DNA of 7,736 bases. It comes from an uncultured Eubacteriales bacterium (GTDB lineage: Bacteria; Bacillota_A; Clostridia; Peptostreptococcales; Anaerovoracaceae). Positions 1 to 7,639 of this stretch are shown here, one piece after another (positions within the stretch are counted from its first letter, which is position 1; each line of letters opens with the position of its first letter). Made by a program: the position numbers and the translations under genes. The stretch is taken from positions 1-7,736 of the forward strand of contig CACYHM010000105.1 in the NCBI GenBank assembly GCA_902774195.1, in the 5' to 3' direction. The notes under the pieces are model-generated. The model searched no databases. It saw nothing but the letters and a program-made list of their open reading frames with translations, and was not told the origin of the DNA.

Positions 1-649
1 ACAGGACATGCTCGGAGACGGCAAAGCCATACTCAGGGAACTGTCGGACGACGGCAGATTCCTCGAGTACAGAGGCACCAGGGGACGCAGCATGATAACG
101 GGATTCATCCGTATAGCCGGGCAGACTGTCGGTGCGGTGGCCTGCAACGAATTCGAAGGACGCAAGCGCATCTCTGCCGCCGGCTGCAACAAAGCGGCCG
201 CACTGATAAACATGTGCACGAGGTTCCACCTCCCGCTCCTGACCATCACGGATACGGAAGGCTATAAGACGGATTCTGCAACGGAGACCTTCCTTCCGGC
301 GGCAGCCGGCAGGATGCTGACGGCGCTGACTTCATCGGATGTGCCGAAGCTCAATCTCGTGACGGGATCTATAGTCGGAAGCGCGTACAGCATGATGAAT
401 TCAAAGGGCCTCGGGGCAGACTACGTATTCATGTGGGACAGCGCGAACGTCAGTATAGTCGAGCCGCGTCAGGCCACGGAGGTCATATTCGGCAGATGGA
501 CGTCTGAACTCGAGCAGCAGTACCGCGACACTCAGTCGAGCGCTATGGCTCTTGCCAGGCACGGGTTTGTAGACAAGGTGATAGCGCCCGAGGATTCGAG
601 AAAGTATCTAATAGGAGCACTTGAGGTGTTCACTAACAGCAGCAGGTGA
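1..649 (+). CDS. Carboxyltransferase subunit, MmdA/12S-like, divergent (5' partial)
   Basis: The frame is open from base 2 to the TGA at 647-649. The Met at base 8 is probably internal, because the family is about 500 residues long and only the last 215 or so codons are here. Seen: this matches the C-terminal crotonase-like lobe of acyl-CoA carboxyltransferases (MmdA, PccB, transcarboxylase 12S), with GFIRIAGQTVGAVA, then NKAAALINMC..FHLPLLT, then AYSMMNSKGLGADYVF, then HGFVDKVIAPEDSRKYLIGALE near the end. Family role: transfer of carboxyl between an acyl-CoA and carboxybiotin. Odd: where relatives have DVPGFLPG..QE..GIIRHGA this protein reads TDTEGYKTDSATETFLPAAAG, and the usual Arg/Lys-rich tail ending in NIPL is absent. 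The acyl-CoA substrate may therefore be unusual, so no symbol is given. It is followed 4 nt later by the OadG-like gene and heads the decarboxylase cluster as seen here. Family confidence is high; substrate is unknown. Confidence 0.82.
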   Translation, partial: QDMLGDGKAILRELSDDGRFLEYRGTRGRSMITGFIRIAGQTVGAVACNEFEGRKRISAAGCNKAAALINMCTRFHLPLLTITDTEGYKTDSATETFLPAAAGRMLTALTSSDVPKLNLVTGSIVGSAYSMMNSKGLGADYVFMWDSANVSIVEPRQATEVIFGRWTSELEQQYRDTQSSAMALARHGFVDKVIAPEDSRKYLIGALEVFTNSSR

Positions 650-653
650 TGAC

Positions 654-965
654 ATGGGCTTAGGAGCGATCTTCAAAACAGCGCTTTTGTATACGCTGAT
701 CGGCATGGGCACGGTCTTCTGTGTTCTAATGTTCATATCGGTATGCATATGGCTGCTGGGACTGGTCTGCGGACCGGAGAAAGAGAAAGAAAAAGAGGAA
801 GGCGCTGCGGCAGCTGCAGCGGAGCCTGCGGCGGAAGAGGGCATCAGGCCGGAGGTCGTTGCTGCCGTCACGGCGGCGATACATCAGTATCTGAAGGACG
901 AAGGAATGGACGAAGGCTACGTCGTAAGGAATGTACGGAGGGCGACATGGAGACATACATCGTAA
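654..965 (+). CDS. Small membrane subunit of biotin-dependent decarboxylase (OadG/delta-like)
   Basis: The product is 103 residues. Residues 7-39 form one hydrophobic membrane segment (FKTALLYTLIGMGTVFCVLM...IWLLGLV), followed by a highly charged and Ala-rich linker at 41-62 (PEKEKEKEEG, AAAAAAEPAA). A short C-terminal block follows with PEVVAAVTAAIHQYL and YVVRNVRR. This architecture, with one N-terminal helix, an Ala/Glu linker and a terminal EVVAA-x-TAA motif, is that of OadG and the delta subunits of methylmalonyl-CoA and glutaconyl-CoA decarboxylases. In that family the subunit helps assemble the soluble carboxyltransferase and biotin carrier on the membrane beta subunit. The ATG at 654 was chosen over the upstream in-frame TTG at 621 because the membrane helix begins just after it and the upstream gene ends at 649. 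An AGCAGG at 641-646 may be its ribosome binding site. Its last 19 nt overlap the biotin carrier gene. Confidence 0.8.
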   Translation: MGLGAIFKTALLYTLIGMGTVFCVLMFISVCIWLLGLVCGPEKEKEKEEGAAAAAAEPAAEEGIRPEVVAAVTAAIHQYLKDEGMDEGYVVRNVRRATWRHTS

Positions 966-1288
966 AGGTAAACGGGGAAGAGTTCGAGGTCGAAATAGAA
1001 AAGAAGAGCGGCTCATCCGCTCCTTCGGCGGCTCCGGCAGAGCCTGCACCTAAGAGAGCAGGCGGAAAGGCGAAGGGAGTTCCTGTCGTATGCGGTACGG
1101 CGGGCTCGGTCTACAAGATCATCGTCCACGAAGGAGAGCATGTCATGAGCGGAGATACGATGATCGTGCTCGAGGCCATGAAGATGGAGATACCTGTGGT
1201 AGCTCCTAAGGAAGGCACGGTCTCCGGGATCCTCGTCTCGGAGGGTGAGACCACCGCGTCCGGACAGACCGTGGCTTACGTGGAATAA
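947..1288 (+). CDS. Biotin carrier protein (biotinyl/lipoyl domain; 1.3S or gamma-subunit-like)
   Basis: The product is 113 residues. It opens with METYIVKVNGEEFEVEIE, typical of biotin carrier subunits of Na+ decarboxylases and of the transcarboxylase 1.3S subunit. A Ser/Ala/Pro-rich flexible linker spans about residues 21-40, followed by the biotinyl domain (about 44-113). The biotinylation motif EAMKME is at 76-81, so Lys79 should be the biotinylated residue. The domain ends normally in GQTVAYVE. The ATG at 947 is supported by GGAGG at 936-940 about 6 nt upstream and by the natural N-terminus. The open frame continues further upstream only as a shadow inside the preceding gene. The gene overlaps the OadG-like gene by 19 nt, which suggests translational coupling. 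It would carry carboxyl groups between the carboxyltransferases encoded on both sides and the membrane beta subunit. Biotin ligase is not in the window. Confidence 0.93.
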   Translation: METYIVKVNGEEFEVEIEKKSGSSAPSAAPAEPAPKRAGGKAKGVPVVCGTAGSVYKIIVHEGEHVMSGDTMIVLEAMKMEIPVVAPKEGTVSGILVSEGETTASGQTVAYVE

Positions 1289-1305
1289 TACCGGGAGGCA
1301 GGACG

Positions 1306-2372
1306 ATGGGTGATACCTTGTTGAATCTGGCTCATCAGACCGGCTTCTTCAGCCTGACAGTCGGCAACGTGATAATGGTTGCCGTCGCCCTTGGATTGCT
1401 GTATCTTGCCATTGCCAGACAGTATGAGCCTCTGCTGCTCCTGCCGATATCCTTCGGCATGCTGCTGGTCAATCTCTACCCTCCGATAATGGAGGAAGGC
1501 GGGCTGCTATACTTTTTCTTCAAGCTCGACGAGTGGACCATACTGCCGTCTCTCATATTCCTGGGGGTCGGTGCGCTCACGGATTTCGGACCTCTGATCG
1601 CAAATCCGAAGAGCTTCCTGCTGGGAGCCGCGGCGCAGTTCGGAGTGTTCGGAGCGTCAGCATCATAGGCGGCGCCGACGGACCGACGTCTATCTTCCTG
1701 GCTATGAAGCTCGGACAGAAGGATCTTATGGGCCCTATCGCTGTTGCGGCATACTCATACATGTCTCTAGTTCCGATAATACAGCCGCCTATAATGAAGG
1801 CGCTTACAACGGAAGAAGAGCGGAAGATAAAAATGGAGCAGCTGAGGGAAGTGACGAAGAAGGAGCGCATACTCTTCCCTGTCATAGTCACGATAGTCGT
1901 ATGCGTGCTGCTGCCTTCGACAGCGCCTCTGATCGGGATGCTGATGCTGGGAAATCTGTTCCGCGAGAGCGGAGTCGTGCGCCAGCTGCAGGATACCGCA
2001 TCAAACTCTCTAATGTATATAGTGGTCATACTTCTCGGGACGTCGGTCGGGGCGACGACAAGCGCCGAGGCCTTCCTGAAGTGGACGACCATCAAGATAG
2101 TTATTCTCGGACTGATAGCTTTCAGCTTCGGGACGGCGGCCGGAGTGCTCTTCGGCAAGCTCATGTGCAGGCTGACGCACGGAAAGATCAATCCGCTCAT
2201 AGGCTCGGCGGGAGTCTCGGCGGTGCCGATGGCGGCCAGGGTATCCCAGAAGGTAGGCGCAGAAGCCGACCCTTCGAACTTTCTGCTCATGCATGCGATG
2301 GGGCCTAACGTAGCCGGAGTCATCGGAACGGCAGTAGCCGCCGGAGTATTCATGGCGATCTTCGGAGTGTGA
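1306..2372 (+). pseudogene. Decarboxylase beta subunit (OadB/GcdB/MmdB family), frameshifted with internal loss
   Basis: This is the Na+-translocating membrane decarboxylase that releases CO2 from carboxybiotin. The first reading frame (1306-1668, 120 residues) has clear family sequence: [18 protein letters not shown], then [20 protein letters not shown], then [12 protein letters not shown], followed by an early stop TAG at 1666-1668. Family sequence resumes in another frame from about 1659: [69 protein letters not shown], ending at the TGA 2370-2372. From memory of the family, roughly 16-25 residues (a membrane segment) normally lie between the AAAQFG-F block and the GGADGPT motif. Here only about 3 codons remain, so a deletion of 3n+1 nt fits better than simple slippage. 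The functional blocks around the conserved Asp of GGADGP and the [10 protein letters not shown] segment are intact. The ribosome binding site GGGAGG is at 1293-1298. The lesion could be a real mutation or an assembly error. Confidence 0.85.
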
Positions 2373-2385
2373 CGGAGGACCGGAA

Positions 2386-3783
2386 ATGGGAAAGAAACTT
2401 AAGATAATGGAGACGGCTATAAGGGACGGCCAGCAGTCGCTCATAGCGACGAGGATGCCGTTCAGCGACATGGAGCCCGCCCTCGCCCTTTTGGACGAGG
2501 CCGGCTATGACGCTGTAGAATGCTGGGGCGGCGCCACGTTTGACGCATGCATCAGGTTCCTCGACGAGGATCCGTGGGAAAGGCTCAGAAAGCTGAGAGA
2601 TGCCATGCCGAAAACGAAGCTCCAGATGCTGCTGAGAGGACAGAACCTTCTCGGATACAGGCACTACTCCGATGACGTGGTCGATTATTTTGTCAAAAAG
2701 TCCATTGACAACGGCATAGATATAATAAGGATATTCGATGCGCTGAACGATCTGCGCAATGTGGAGACGGCCGTAAGGTCGGCGAAGGAGTACGGCGGTC
2801 ACGCCCAGGTTGCGATGTCATACACCATAGGCGAGCCGTACACGCCTGAGTATTGGAAGGACCTGGCTCTCCGCATACAGGATCTGGGCGCGGATTCCAT
2901 CTGCGTAAAGGACATGGCGGGTCTGATGCTTCCGGATGCGGCGGCTGAGATGGTATCGATGCTCAAAGCGAACCTTGAGATACCTGTCCATCTGCACACG
3001 CACTGCACGAGCGGCGTAGCGCCTATCACCTATTACAGGGCGGTGCTTGCCGGAGCCGACTGCATCGATACGGCGATATCGCCGTTCTCGGGAGGGACCA
3101 GCCAGCCGGCCACGGAGGTCATGGTCGAGACCTTCAGAGGCACTGAATTCGATACCGGCCTGGACATGGGAGTGCTCGAGAAGATAGCTGCGCACTTCCA
3201 GACCGTAAGGGATGCCGCTCTCAAAAGCGGACTCATGAATACGAAGGTGCTGGGAACGGACATCAAGACGCTTATCTATCAGGTGCCGGGAGGCATGCTC
3301 TCGAACCTGGTGTCTCAGCTTAAGGAACAGAACGCCGAGGACAAATACCTCGATGTGCTCCAGGAGGTGCCGCGCGTCAGGAACGATCTGGGCATGCCGC
3401 CTCTTGTGACTCCTTCGTCGCAGATAGTAGGCACCCAGGCGGTGCTGAATGTACTGATGGGCGAGAGATACAAGATCCTGTCCAAAGAAACGCAGGAGAT
3501 ACTGAAGGGCAGATACGGACAGACTCCGATGCCTGTTTCGCCTGATCTTCTGGCGAAGATAGATGAGAGCGAAAGGATCACATGCCGGCCTGCCGATCTT
3601 CTAGAGCCTGAGCTCGGGAAGCTAGAAGAGGAGGTCGGAGAGTATAAAGAGCAGGACGAGGACATCCTGACTTACGCTCTGTTCGGACCGGTGGCGCTCG
3701 AGTATTTCAGAAGGAGAGCCGCCCTCAGAAACGGTGTCGATCCGGACGCGATCGACATGAAAAACAAGTCATACCCCGCGTAG
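2386..3783 (+). CDS. Pyruvate/oxaloacetate carboxyltransferase (OadA/PycB/5S-like), no biotin domain
   Basis: The product is 465 residues with the TIM-barrel carboxyltransferase fold of the OadA alpha subunit, pyruvate carboxylase subunit B and transcarboxylase 5S. Seen motifs: ETAIRDGQQSL at 9-19 (metal-ligand Asp14, Gln16), ECWGGATFD at 45-53, VKDMAGL at 174-180 (Lys175, equivalent to the carboxylated metal-bridging Lys), HLHTHCTSG at 202-210 (metal ligands His204 and His206), SPFSGGTSQPATE at 232-244, QVPGGMLSNL at 299-308 and TPSSQIVGTQAV at 342-353. The barrel is followed by the helical conserved carboxylase domain. Family reaction: transfer of carboxyl between biotin and pyruvate/oxaloacetate. 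The protein stops before the Pro/Ala linker and biotinyl domain of full-length OadA, so it must use the separate carrier at 947-1288. The ATG is preceded by GGAGG (2374-2378, 7 nt spacing), 13 nt after the beta gene. All catalytic residues recognised are present, so it looks active. Confidence 0.92.
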   Translation: MGKKLKIMETAIRDGQQSLIATRMPFSDMEPALALLDEAGYDAVECWGGATFDACIRFLDEDPWERLRKLRDAMPKTKLQMLLRGQNLLGYRHYSDDVVDYFVKKSIDNGIDIIRIFDALNDLRNVETAVRSAKEYGGHAQVAMSYTIGEPYTPEYWKDLALRIQDLGADSICVKDMAGLMLPDAAAEMVSMLKANLEIPVHLHTHCTSGVAPITYYRAVLAGADCIDTAISPFSGGTSQPATEVMVETFRGTEFDTGLDMGVLEKIAAHFQTVRDAALKSGLMNTKVLGTDIKTLIYQVPGGMLSNLVSQLKEQNAEDKYLDVLQEVPRVRNDLGMPPLVTPSSQIVGTQAVLNVLMGERYKILSKETQEILKGRYGQTPMPVSPDLLAKIDESERITCRPADLLEPELGKLEEEVGEYKEQDEDILTYALFGPVALEYFRRRAALRNGVDPDAIDMKNKSYPA

Positions 3784-3798
3784 AACGAGGAGAAAACG

Positions 3799-4515
3799 AT
3801 GCTAAAAACGATCGGTATTATGGGCGGCATGGGGCCCGCTGCGACAGTGGACCTGATGAGCAGGATCATCAGCATGACGGACGCCGCCTCCGACCAGGAA
3901 CACATCCCGATGATAGTGGATTCAGATACCAGGATACCGGACCGCACGGAGGCGATCCTGGGAAGAGGGGAAAGCCCGCTGCCTGAGATGCTGGCAAGCG
4001 CGAAAAGGCTCGAAGCGGCAGGAGCCGACTTCATAGTTGTTGCGTGCCACGCCGCTCACTATTATCTGCCGGAGATAAAAAAACAGATAGGCATCCCCGT
4101 AATCGATATGCCTGAAGAGGTCGCAAAACTGCTGAAGATGAAGGGCGTGAACAAAGCTGCTGTCCTGGCAACGGACGGCACGGTCCGGAGCGGACTCTAC
4201 GGCGCCGCTTTGGAGCGCTTCGGCATACAGGCCGTGTATCCTGATGAGGACCAGCAGAAGACGGTAATGTCGCTGGTCTATGAATATGTCAAAAAAGGAT
4301 ACACGGATCCGGCGGATTTTCCGCGCGAAGAAATAACGGGTATAATAGGAGACCTGAGCAGTCAGGGGGCTGAGGTGCTTCTTCTGGCAAGCACGGAGCT
4401 TCCTATCGCGTTCAGCATAATGGGACTGAGATCGAGCGCCTTCATAGACCCGACCGTTGTCCTCGCCAAATCGGCGATAAGGACTGCGGGAGCGAAACGC
4501 AAAAAAGGCCGGTGA
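3799..4515 (+). CDS. Aspartate/glutamate racemase family protein with atypical active site
   Basis: The product is 238 residues, a normal length for the PLP-independent Asp/Glu/hydantoin racemase family. The N-terminus IGIMGGMGPAATVDL (5-19) is the classic aspartate racemase signature. The first catalytic motif, usually ACNTAH, reads ACHAAHYY, with Cys83 kept but Asn and Thr replaced by His84 and Ala85. The second motif, usually GCTEL, reads ASTEL at 197-201, so Ser198 stands where the second catalytic Cys is expected. Family reaction: two-base racemisation using a Cys pair. With one Cys replaced, full racemisation may be weakened or one-directional, or the protein may do something else; this is inference. 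A strong GAGGAG at 3787-3792 supports the start. The gene lies 15 nt after the OadA-like gene and its stop overlaps a possible GTG start of bioY (GTGA), so it is part of the operon. Aspartate is one transamination from oxaloacetate, which would suit the neighbours. Confidence 0.85.
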   Translation: MLKTIGIMGGMGPAATVDLMSRIISMTDAASDQEHIPMIVDSDTRIPDRTEAILGRGESPLPEMLASAKRLEAAGADFIVVACHAAHYYLPEIKKQIGIPVIDMPEEVAKLLKMKGVNKAAVLATDGTVRSGLYGAALERFGIQAVYPDEDQQKTVMSLVYEYVKKGYTDPADFPREEITGIIGDLSSQGAEVLLLASTELPIAFSIMGLRSSAFIDPTVVLAKSAIRTAGAKRKKGR

Positions 4516-4520
4516 TACAG

Positions 4521-5096
4521 ATGACAGTAAAAGAAACAACCATTACAGAAGGACATGTCTCAGAGAAGCTGGAAACGAGAGACCTTGTACTTATAGCCCA
4601 GTGCGCTGCGATGATGACGGTATGTTCATGGATATCCGTCCCTGCGGCGGTCCCTTTTACGATGCAGACATTCGGAGTATTCATGGCCATAGGCCTGCTC
4701 GGCGGAAAAAGAGGGACAGCTGCTGTGACCGTATATCTGCTGCTCGGAGCAGCCGGCCTGCCTGTCTTTTCGGGTTTCACCGGAGGCATAGGACATATAA
4801 TGGGACCGACCGGAGGCTATCTTATAGGCTTTCTGTTCTCTGCGCTCGTTATGTGGCTTACAGAACATTTCTTCGGCAGGAGCATGCGCGTCCTCGTCAT
4901 ATCGATGTTCGCGGGCCTTGCAGTATGCTACGCTTTCGGTACCGCGTGGTTCGTCATTTCGGGAGCGAAAGGCAGCGGCGGCACGGGACTCATGGCGGCG
5001 CTTTCGCTCTGCGTTTTCCCCTACATCATCCCGGACATTATCAAGATCGCTCTTGCGGCGCAGCTGACCAGACGGCTGAGACCTTATGTGGCGTGA
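4521..5096 (+). CDS. bioY: BioY biotin transporter (S component)
   Basis: The product is 191 residues from ATG 4521 and hydrophobic, with about six membrane segments after a short polar N-terminus (1-20). The BioY motifs are all visible: VPFTMQT at 44-50, GLLGGKRG at 58-65, YLLLGAAGLPVFSGFTGG at 72-89, GPTGGYLIGF at 95-104, FGTAW at 139-143 and PDIIKI at 171-176. Family role: high-affinity biotin uptake, alone or with the shared ECF ATPases and T protein, none of which are in the window. Start choice: an in-frame GTG at 4512 overlaps the racemase stop as GTGA and would add three residues. Neither start has an ideal ribosome binding site (AAAAAAGG ends at 4508, too close to 4512 and rather far from 4521), so coupling to the upstream gene is likely. 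Location within a biotin-enzyme cluster makes cofactor supply the obvious role. Confidence 0.93.
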   Translation: MTVKETTITEGHVSEKLETRDLVLIAQCAAMMTVCSWISVPAAVPFTMQTFGVFMAIGLLGGKRGTAAVTVYLLLGAAGLPVFSGFTGGIGHIMGPTGGYLIGFLFSALVMWLTEHFFGRSMRVLVISMFAGLAVCYAFGTAWFVISGAKGSGGTGLMAALSLCVFPYIIPDIIKIALAAQLTRRLRPYVA

Positions 5097-5103
5097 TGAT
5101 CCC

Positions 5104-6045
5104 ATGCTTCAGAATTTCATTATCTGCGTAAACGCCGTCATACCGTCGGCCATATATCTGATCATCGGCATCATACTCAGGGTGTCGGGTGCAGTCACGG
5201 AAGAACAGGTGCGCAAGTTCACCCACGTGGTGTTCATCGCGCTCTATCCGTTTATAATGTTCGACAATCTCTACGGCAAGAATATAGCCGAAAACATGGA
5301 CATGAAGCTCGGGCTGTACGCCGTGGGCTTCACGCTGCTGCAGTTCGTGCTGTCATGGGCCTTCGTGGTGCGCATCGAAAAGGACAACTACGAAAGAGGC
5401 GCCATGATACAGGCGCTGTACCGAAGCAATTACGTGCTGATGGGTTTTCCGATCGCTGTCAATCTGTTCGGAAAGGGCAATATCACGGCGGTAGCCATCA
5501 TCATGATGCTGGTCGTGCCGTTCTACAATATATCTGCGGTGATCCTCTTTGAGACTTTCCGCGGAGGCAGGGTGGACATAAAGAAGATGATCAGGAAGAT
5601 AATGACGAATCCTATCATCGACGGAGGCATCGCTGCATTCATAGTTATGGCGCTAGGGATAAAGCTGCCGTCGGCTGTGGAGATGACGGTGAGCTCGCTG
5701 TCCGATGCGACATCTCCGATCGCCATGATACTCCTCGGCGCGGCTCTTAATATAGAAGGCTTCAAAAGCGACCGCACGCGCATAGTCATATGCACGCTCG
5801 GCAAGCTCGTCGTGTTCCCGGCGTTCGGCATCGCGGGGGCGGTGTTTTTAGGGATCACGGGAGTGCAGCTGATAGCGGTCACGCTCATGGTCGCGGCTCC
5901 GGTGGCCCTCGCGTCGTACGCAATGGCAAGCTCAATGGGAGGCAACGGAGAACTGGCCGGAGAACTGGTCGTGATCACGACCATATGCTCCTGCTTCACG
6001 ATACCTCTGTTCCTGTTCATTCTCAAAACGAACGGACTTTTCTGA
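5104..6045 (+). CDS. AEC-family (auxin efflux carrier-like) permease
   Basis: The product is 313 residues, typical for bacterial AEC transporters (MdcF/YfdV type), with about ten hydrophobic segments in two halves. Seen: an N-terminal helix IPSAIYLIIGIILRVSG (13-29), LYPFIMFDNL (48-57), the first-half signature RSNYVLMGFPIAVNLFG (107-123), VPFYNISAVILFE in the middle, a basic cytoplasmic loop (DIKKMIRKIMTNPII), SPIAMILLGAALN in the second half, and VAAPVALASYAMASSMGG near the C-terminus. Relatives move organic acids such as malonate, oxalate or malate; the substrate here cannot be read from sequence. A dicarboxylate or monocarboxylate linked to the decarboxylase would be consistent. ATG 5104 places the first helix correctly. 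An in-frame ATG at 5086 inside bioY would add six residues. No clear ribosome binding site precedes either, and bioY ends only 7 nt before, so translation is probably coupled. Confidence 0.84.
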   Translation: MLQNFIICVNAVIPSAIYLIIGIILRVSGAVTEEQVRKFTHVVFIALYPFIMFDNLYGKNIAENMDMKLGLYAVGFTLLQFVLSWAFVVRIEKDNYERGAMIQALYRSNYVLMGFPIAVNLFGKGNITAVAIIMMLVVPFYNISAVILFETFRGGRVDIKKMIRKIMTNPIIDGGIAAFIVMALGIKLPSAVEMTVSSLSDATSPIAMILLGAALNIEGFKSDRTRIVICTLGKLVVFPAFGIAGAVFLGITGVQLIAVTLMVAAPVALASYAMASSMGGNGELAGELVVITTICSCFTIPLFLFILKTNGLF

Positions 6046-6052
6046 CGCGGAG

Positions 6053-6067
6053 CCGGTCCGGCACCGG
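6053..6067 (+). repeat. Short GC-rich hairpin after the AEC gene
   Basis: CCGGT (6053-6057), a 5-nt spacer CCGGC, then ACCGG (6063-6067) forms a 5-bp stem 7 nt after the AEC stop codon. An overlapping palindrome GCCGG-T-CCGGC (6052-6062) is a competing arrangement. There is no T-run after it, only TTCACAATTTGTTT, so it is a weak terminator at best. It might protect the 3' end of the operon transcript. Confidence 0.3.
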
Positions 6068-6082
6068 GGTTCACAATTTGTT

Positions 6083-6152
6083 TAACCGCATGGTGTGGAT
6101 GCGAAAGTCCGGAGGACGTGCCTGCCCTCTGTTTTTTTGCCGGATGCGGTTA
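6083..6152 (+). repeat. Nine-bp inverted repeat flanking the terminator
   Basis: The arms TAACCGCAT (6083-6091) and ATGCGGTTA (6144-6152) are exact reverse complements and enclose the terminator hairpin. The left arm can alternatively pair over 5 bp with ATGCG at 6099-6103 (loop of 7 nt). A nearby second pair TCCGG (6108-6112) and CCGGA (6140-6144) also conflicts with the terminator stem. This is compatible with alternative RNA folds or with a DNA-binding site; no experimental or conservation evidence is available here. Confidence 0.4.
6110..6138 (+). terminator. Intrinsic (Rho-independent) terminator candidate
   Basis: CGGAGG (6110-6115) pairs with CCTCTG (6126-6131), six pairs including one G-U, with a 10-nt loop, directly followed by seven T residues (6132-6138). 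It lies 65 nt after the AEC stop and 45 nt before the AGCS start. It could end the biotin-enzyme operon, or act as an attenuator within the AGCS leader. GTCC (6107-6110) can pair with GGAC (6114-6117) and would disrupt the stem, giving a possible competing hairpin. Confidence 0.6.
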
Positions 6153-6182
6153 TCCATTAAAGAGAAACGGGAGAATGATCCA

Positions 6183-7616
6183 ATGGAAACTATCGTAAGT
6201 ATCAACTCTGCTATCAACAATTTCGTATGGGGCATACCTGCCATGGTATGTATACTCGGCATAGGTCTGTATCTGAGCATCAGAACTGGATTCATCCAGG
6301 TCAGGAAGTTCGGCCTTGCGATGAAGGAGACGTTCGGCAAGATCTTCAGCAAGGACAAGACGAAGGAAGGCGCGATCTCGCCTTTCCAGGCGCTGTGCAC
6401 GGCTCTTGCCGCTACGGTCGGCACCGGCAACATCGCCGGCGTTGCGGGAGCTCTCGCTATAGGAGGCCCGGGATCGATATTCTGGATGTGGATATCCGCA
6501 ATGCTCGGAATGTGCACGAAATTCTCGGAGGTCACACTGGCTGTCCACTTCAGGGAGATAGATGACCAGGGGACTTATGTCGGCGGCCCGATGTACTACA
6601 TAAAGAACGGGCTAGGAAAGAACTGGAAGTGGCTCGGAGTGCTGTTCTCGCTCTTCGGGATCGGCGCCGTATTCGGCACAGGCAACGCCGCACAGGTGAA
6701 CACGATCACGGCTTCGATAGACACAGCTCTCACTTCTTTCAACGTGATGGGAGAGAAGGGCATCGGCACGCTGAATCTCATCATCGGCATCGTGCTTGCC
6801 GTACTTATCGCCTTCATCCTCATAGGAGGTGTCCAGAGGATCGGAGCGGTCACGGAGAAACTCGTTCCGTTCATGGCTGTGTTCTATATACTGCTCGGAC
6901 TTGGCGTCATAGTGATCAACTACAGGTTCGTACCGGGAGCGATCGTATCGATCTTCGAAGGCGCGTTCAACCCTAAGGCCGTGACGGGCGGAGTGGTCGG
7001 CACGGTATTCCTCAGCCTTCAGAAAGGCATCGCGAGAGGGATCTTCTCGAACGAAGCAGGACTCGGCACGGGCTCCATGGCTCACGCCAGCGCTGATGTG
7101 AATCACCCGGTAAAGCAGGGCTTTTTCGGGATCTTCGAAGTGTTCGTCGACACGATAGTCATCTGCACCATGACGGCTCTCATCATCATGTGCGGACGCG
7201 CCGATGTGGTCTACGGGCAGGCTGCGGGAGCCGAGCTCACGATACAGGGCTTCACGAACACCTACGGCGCATGGGTATCCATCTTCACGGCGGTCGCGAT
7301 GTGCTGCTTTGCGTTCTCGACGATACTCGGCTGGGGACTCTATGGTACACGCTGCTCCGAGTTCCTCTTCGGAGGCAAGGCCCGCAAGCCGTTCCTGATA
7401 GTCTATGCGCTGGTCGCGATCCTCGGAGCGACGATGGATCTCGGAGTCATCTGGGAGGTCGCAGAGACTTTCAACGGACTCATGGCCATACCTAACCTTA
7501 TAGCTGTATTCCTGCTCTCGGGCACAGTAGTCAGACTGATAAAGAACTACTTCAGCGATGAGGAATACATCCCGTATCACGAGCAGGAAAAAATGCTCAA
7601 AGAAAACAAACAGTAA
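6183..7616 (+). CDS. Sodium:alanine/glycine symporter, AGCS family
   Basis: The product is 477 residues, full length for the amino acid carrier (alanine/glycine:cation symporter, AGCS) family, with about ten or eleven membrane segments. Seen: N-terminal FVWGIPAMVCILGIGLYLSI (14-33), ALAATVGTGNIAGVAGALAI (74-93) with the ion/substrate-site consensus TVGTGNIAGV, GPGSIFWMWISAMLGM, the family hallmark YVGGPMYYI (132-140), and GIARGIFSNEAGLGTGSM (282-299) followed by AHASADVNHPVKQG. All hallmark residues are intact. Family role: uptake of alanine or glycine driven by Na+, or H+ in some members. The ATG at 6183 is preceded by CGGGAG at 6168-6173. The frame is open further upstream but that part overlaps the AEC gene and is not protein-like for this family. 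The short hydrophilic C-terminus ends in EQEKMLKENKQ. A Na+ gradient is what an intact OadB-type pump would supply, a plausible but unproven link. Confidence 0.95.
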   Translation: METIVSINSAINNFVWGIPAMVCILGIGLYLSIRTGFIQVRKFGLAMKETFGKIFSKDKTKEGAISPFQALCTALAATVGTGNIAGVAGALAIGGPGSIFWMWISAMLGMCTKFSEVTLAVHFREIDDQGTYVGGPMYYIKNGLGKNWKWLGVLFSLFGIGAVFGTGNAAQVNTITASIDTALTSFNVMGEKGIGTLNLIIGIVLAVLIAFILIGGVQRIGAVTEKLVPFMAVFYILLGLGVIVINYRFVPGAIVSIFEGAFNPKAVTGGVVGTVFLSLQKGIARGIFSNEAGLGTGSMAHASADVNHPVKQGFFGIFEVFVDTIVICTMTALIIMCGRADVVYGQAAGAELTIQGFTNTYGAWVSIFTAVAMCCFAFSTILGWGLYGTRCSEFLFGGKARKPFLIVYALVAILGATMDLGVIWEVAETFNGLMAIPNLIAVFLLSGTVVRLIKNYFSDEEYIPYHEQEKMLKENKQ

Positions 7617-7639
7617 GAGAACGATTCAAAGGGGATTAG

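Follow-up and report, generated by a model that had tools for sequence, protein, structure and literature searches.

A 49-bp deletion divides the beta-subunit gene of a biotin-dependent Na+-pump decarboxylase between two frames in a contig of an uncultured Eubacteriales bacterium: probably a recent loss-of-function allele

The beta subunit of the biotin-dependent Na+-pump decarboxylases is described structurally for OadB of the Salmonella oxaloacetate decarboxylase (OAD). In the cryo-EM description (PMC7274780), the core domain comprises H1 and H2 together with T4-5 and T9-10, and residue Asp203 sits at the tip of the helical hairpin H1. According to the same description, the substitution D203A abolished both the binding of Na+ and the stimulation of oxaloacetate decarboxylation, and Asp203 and the hairpin tip are given as required for both in Salmonella OAD (PMC7274780). 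Here we analysed a stretch of 7,736 nucleotides (termed the window) that carries a gene of this family (PF03977; oadB/mmdB/gcdB type) at 1306-2372, which is read in two frames split at 1655/1656.

Profile searches assigned both pieces of the gene to the beta subunits of Na+-pump decarboxylases. The N piece (1306-1665) matches Pfam OAD_beta over profile positions 2-98 (113.2 bits, E 1.8e-32) and the C piece (1656-2369) over positions 115-349 (371.2 bits, E 6.5e-111), both above the cut-off of 31.6 bits for PF03977. Against TIGR01109, which has a cut-off of 190.6, the C piece passes at 353.4, whereas the N piece alone stays below it at 112.1. The first-pass annotation had placed a gene-breaking frame change near 1640-1670, and the two frames, each matching OAD_beta, bear this out. 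The counterparts of Asp203, Ser382 and Asn412 (Salmonella numbering) are all encoded in the window DNA, though not within one product; the alignment of the C piece begins at residue 197 of Salmonella OadB, with Asp203 inside. No single frame runs through helix T4 and hairpin H1, where the frame change coincides with a loss of 49 nt.

The size of the loss was derived in two ways. In the window, 41 nt separate the start of the AAAQ block (1627) from that of the GGADGP block (1668), whereas the starts of AAAQFG and GGADGP are 30 codons (90 nt) apart in 145/145 relatives that have both exact words (240 beta proteins were fetched, and 95 lacking one exact word through truncation or divergence were left out of this count). 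Exactly 49 nt (3 x 16 + 1) are thus missing. DNA alignment with 13 congeneric loci gave the same figure, with a single 49-column gap after 1655 that represents a clean deletion of 16 codons and 1 nt against each of them, in agreement with the 3n+1 nt loss predicted earlier. On the numbering of the intact 371-aa relatives, the window lacks everything from the final base of codon 117 through codon 133, including the whole of codons 118-133. The earlier suggestion that a stretch of some 20 residues had been lost immediately before GGADGP therefore needs adjustment: a segment upstream of that block is indeed gone, but it measures 16 whole codons plus one base, with 16 residues missing when the two-frame translation is aligned to family proteins, and the junction lies 12 nt 5' of the block.

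Reading from 1306 yields 116 family residues followed by four foreign ones and a stop codon, TAG, at 1666-1668, so that the upstream-frame product terminates 13 nt beyond the junction; neither piece contains a further stop. Between 1500 and 1760, the sole starts in the downstream frame are GTG 1533, ATG 1704 and ATG 1728, and the first of these, the only one after 1500 that precedes 1704, lies deep within the upstream piece. Since the Asp codon (1677-1679) is 3' of the upstream-frame stop and 5' of the first downstream-frame ATG, the Na+-site Asp falls in neither likely product.

Table 1. Coordinates of the features in the window.
Feature	Position	Strand	Remarks
Acyl-CoA carboxyltransferase (PF01039), 3' end, cut by window start	2..649	+	full-length in kin, L026:8000-9346
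oadG-type small membrane subunit (PF04277)	654..965	+	profile match
Biotin carrier protein (PF00364)	947..1288	+	profile match; AMKM motif
Upstream beta piece	1306..1668	+	116 family + 4 foreign residues; OAD_beta profile positions 2-98
Deletion junction	1655..1656	+	49 nt absent; present in 13/13 congeneric loci
Downstream beta piece, other frame	1656..2372	+	OAD_beta profile positions 115-349; without start codon near junction
GGADGP block	1668..1685	+	Asp codon 1677-1679, counterpart of Asp203 of Salmonella OadB
Putative restart fragment, 222 aa	1704..2372	+	identical to catalogue protein P0211
OadA/5S-type carboxyltransferase (PF00682 + PF02436), open	2386..3783	+	profile match
Aspartate/cysteate-type racemase	3799-4515	+	
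BioY	4512-5096	+	
Auxin-efflux-type carrier	5104-6045	+	
AgcS-type Na+:amino-acid symporter	6183-7616	+	
LysR gene, start	about 7640 on	+	92% match to L026, LysR there

To locate the lost segment in a fold, we used an AlphaFold2 model of the intact relative P0121, whose best match in the PDB is 6iww_A (E 1.1e-20). The mean pLDDT of the model is 52.7, with ten-residue blocks over 111-150 scoring 62-78, and its helices at 110-123, 128-139 and 142-151 are of low confidence with merely indicative limits. On this model, the deletion would remove the end of one helix, a turn and the start of a hairpin arm. It would thereby strip the stretch leading into the hairpin whose tip bears the Na+-site Asp, in addition to shifting the frame, and a product restarted at ATG 1704 would lack the hairpin tip. 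The soluble parts of the enzyme should still be able to form carboxybiotin, which the beta subunit could presumably no longer decarboxylate, and Na+ export by the pump would stop.

The genes neighbouring beta remain open (Table 1). The AMKM of the biotin carrier is presumably the biotinylation motif. The OadA/5S-type protein finds its best structure match in 2nx9 (oxaloacetate decarboxylase 2 subunit alpha), which we take to be from Vibrio. Rfam yielded no matches in the window at gathering scores, and a promoter/terminator scan of 1200-2500 found a single promoter and a single terminator, where shuffled sequences averaged 0.5 for either kind. At the 3' end of the window, the AgcS-type gene sits between the genes for the auxin-efflux-type carrier and LysR (window 6046-7639); in genome G001 (locus L026) these two are 13 bp apart with no AgcS between them, and the congener G002 has a 79% match to AgcS on another contig.

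On the contig of G001 (L026:9369-13296), the pump cluster follows a citX-citG fusion, an isocitrate dehydrogenase gene and the end of citF. Citrate fermentation via oxaloacetate is described for Klebsiella (PMC8473912). The cit genes beside the cluster in G001 fit such a fermentation; as a general rule the association is weak, with citF present in 26/47 congeners, on the same contig as beta only in G001, and found also in some congeners that have no beta gene.

Comparison with kin found the gene whole in 13/13 aligned loci. In the 47 congeneric genomes, beta is present in 33, giving 34 matches, 34/34 of them without an internal stop. None of the 122 loci examined has a stop across the site, and 120/122 are ungapped there, the exceptions L077 and L010 being in-frame length differences; these loci are partly non-independent, since some overlap or come from one genome: L022 and L026 denote a single gene, and the alignment figures of L013 and L027 are identical. 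A conserved short form in a single frame, named by the first-pass annotation as the outcome that would contradict a lesion, was found in none of the relatives examined (13 aligned loci, 47 congeneric genomes, 145 proteins and 122 loci). The junction pattern itself occurs in 0/47 congeneric genomes and in no stretch of genome_contigs, a set that may omit records very near the window. In G008, the OadA/5S gene (contig C29:1110-2373) was matched as three consecutive pieces in separate open frames, as if frameshifted, and the beta match of this congener begins at base 2 of the contig.

The nearest genome compared, G001, shares 20% of the 31-letter words of the window and is 87.2% identical to it over 1-6045. 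In the 353 beta codons compared between the two, three changes are nonsynonymous and 48 synonymous, a lower rate of nonsynonymous change per codon than in any other gene compared (AgcS is without a counterpart there). Judged by these substitutions, beta was strongly constrained until the break, which places the break recently, after nearly all of the divergence from G001. Over 1-6045, the 49-bp deletion is also the sole uncompensated frame-breaking indel in coding sequence; the remaining indels are multiples of three, an intergenic 2-nt indel at 3786 and a +1/-1 pair at 4077/4086 in the racemase gene.

As for the taxonomic surroundings, the C piece is 91-95% identical to several catalogue proteins named as from Mogibacterium sp. 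MAGs, a genus that NCBI places in Anaerovoracaceae, and the closest locus in the named genome collection is that of uncultured Clostridiales bacterium RUG576 (92% protein identity), the RUG names presumably denoting rumen genomes. The window thus probably stems from an uncultured bacterium resembling Mogibacterium. The intact protein P0121 (371 aa, a cluster of 80 member sequences, on a 7716-bp contig) differs from the window pieces at 2/353 residues. G001, another species, differs at 3/353, so P0121 need not come from the species of the window. The faster-changing BioY is 80% identical to that of G001 and 99% identical to P0241 on a 34,794-bp contig. This contig may hold another copy of the locus from the same species, and the match indicates that longer contigs of that species are probably present in public data.

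The two readings put forward in the first-pass annotation, a recent inactivation of the pump and an error of assembly, both still stand, with the 49-bp size and the constraint until the break now added. We consider it probable that the beta gene of this biotin-dependent Na+-pump decarboxylase is present in the window as a private and recent loss-of-function allele. The comparison of sequences shows the deletion, the frame change, an intact gene in kin and constraint until recently; the existence of the molecule and the loss of function are inferred. The gene may instead be whole in the organism, the 49 bases having gone missing because a read carried a deletion or was chimeric, because a gap was filled or because strains were mixed; we hold such an assembly or library artefact to be possible though less likely. 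It would suit the strong constraint on beta to either side of the break, the absence of the broken form from all kin and genomes examined, and an intact P0121 only two residues away, albeit not necessarily in the same species. Foreign-tailed fragments are moreover frequent in the protein catalogue: among the best 120 of 2865 matches to the N piece, 60 carry a foreign tail and 60 end abruptly, which makes faults of sequencing or assembly a live source. Speaking against an artefact is the homology at the break points, which amounts to merely 0-3 bp (among 13 kin, 0 bp in eight, 1 bp in two, 2 bp in one and 3 bp in two); no 7-14 nt word is shared within 40 nt of both break points in G001. Assemblers join reads through long overlaps, and with so little homology a collapsed repeat or an overlap-based misjoin would be unlikely. 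A molecule present in the library is the more probable origin of the junction. A further point against an artefact is that P0211, the truncated product of 222 aa that begins exactly at 1704, is on two contigs. The longest is 7736 bp, the length of the window; the second may carry the same break, though it could derive from that very sample, or its sequence might merely start within the gene.

A breakage hotspot at the site is not apparent, as the foreign tails in the best 120 of 2865 matches start anywhere between residues 110 and 187, and the length limits of the search account for part of this range. Deletion driven by a hairpin was rejected as well, the matching G001 strand (96 nt) folding no better than shuffles (z -0.63). 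For two other catalogue entries, P0003 and P0153, the longest contig measures 3146 bp in both cases, and the two may together represent a further beta gene that is broken in two. P0131 has a tandem duplication starting at the same block at which the family sequence resumes in the window.

Two readings would preserve a function for the altered locus. One supposes a working beta subunit in two pieces, its frames joined by frameshifting or its fragments assembling. In its favour, both pieces are free of further stops and highly conserved; nevertheless, the spacing is found in no relative examined, the 16 missing residues are beyond what frameshifting could supply, and the available downstream-frame starts include none near the stop, with the Asp codon preceding 1704. 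We therefore reject a functional split or recoded gene as extremely improbable. The other, which we regard as very unlikely, is that the loss of beta was kept because a single step converted the cluster to a soluble transcarboxylase, in which carboxybiotin, no longer decarboxylated at the membrane, would be passed between the two carboxyltransferases (acyl-CoA <-> oxaloacetate/pyruvate). The cluster does encode an acyl-CoA carboxyltransferase, a biotin carrier and an OadA/5S-type carboxyltransferase, so that 12S-like, 5S-like and carrier genes occur together, although the 12S-like gene is cut here and complete only in kin (L026). The window 5S-type protein matches transcarboxylase 5S (1rqb, E 5.4e-128), and the L026 carboxyltransferase matches the solved 12S (1on3, E 4.9e-53). 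The latter match ranks 18 of 51, however, with propionyl-CoA carboxylase beta chains as the best matches, just as OadA chains are better matches for the 5S-type protein; against mmdA, the L026 protein reaches 253.8 bits where the cut-off is 998.8.

The distribution of the genes in kin also weighs against a transcarboxylase. Among the 14/47 congeners without beta, only G061 retains the OadA/5S gene, which starts so near a contig edge (base 14) that beta may have been cut off, so that the kin examined offer no cluster stably kept without beta. An mmdA-like gene was sought in 40 relatives and was not found in the seven of the 14 beta-less congeners that these include. In the subset of 18 congeneric genomes with a completeness of 90% or more and a contamination of no more than 5%, beta is absent from three. 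Because the beta-less congeners mostly lack OadA/5S too, kin appear to keep or lose the pump whole, as opposed to maintaining a stable form without beta. The break is, besides, too recent for adaptation to be judged.

A recent loss-of-function allele thus remains the preferred reading. If reads confirm the break, the locus would show the loss of the pump at an early stage, in a genus where 14/47 genomes show no beta gene. If the break proves an artefact, it would serve as a warning that a single such lesion is too little ground for concluding that a metagenome contig lacks energy conservation by a Na+ pump. As seen, the locus holds a single broken allele of a pump subunit that is well known, and is otherwise ordinary.

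Altogether, the locus can be set against two known systems. Like Salmonella OadB (6iva/6iww; PF03977, TIGR01109), the window DNA encodes counterparts of Asp203, Ser382 and Asn412. Compared to intact OadB, MmdB and GcdB, its gene is shorter by 49 nt or 16 residues and broken in frame, and neither likely product contains the Asp block. The soluble genes of the window are homologous to 12S and 5S of the Propionibacterium transcarboxylase (12S, 5S and 1.3S), and a biotin carrier is included as well. In contrast to that enzyme, the window cluster also has an oadG-type subunit, the clusters of kin have an adjoining beta gene, and the closest solved relatives of the window-type proteins are PccB- and OadA-type chains.
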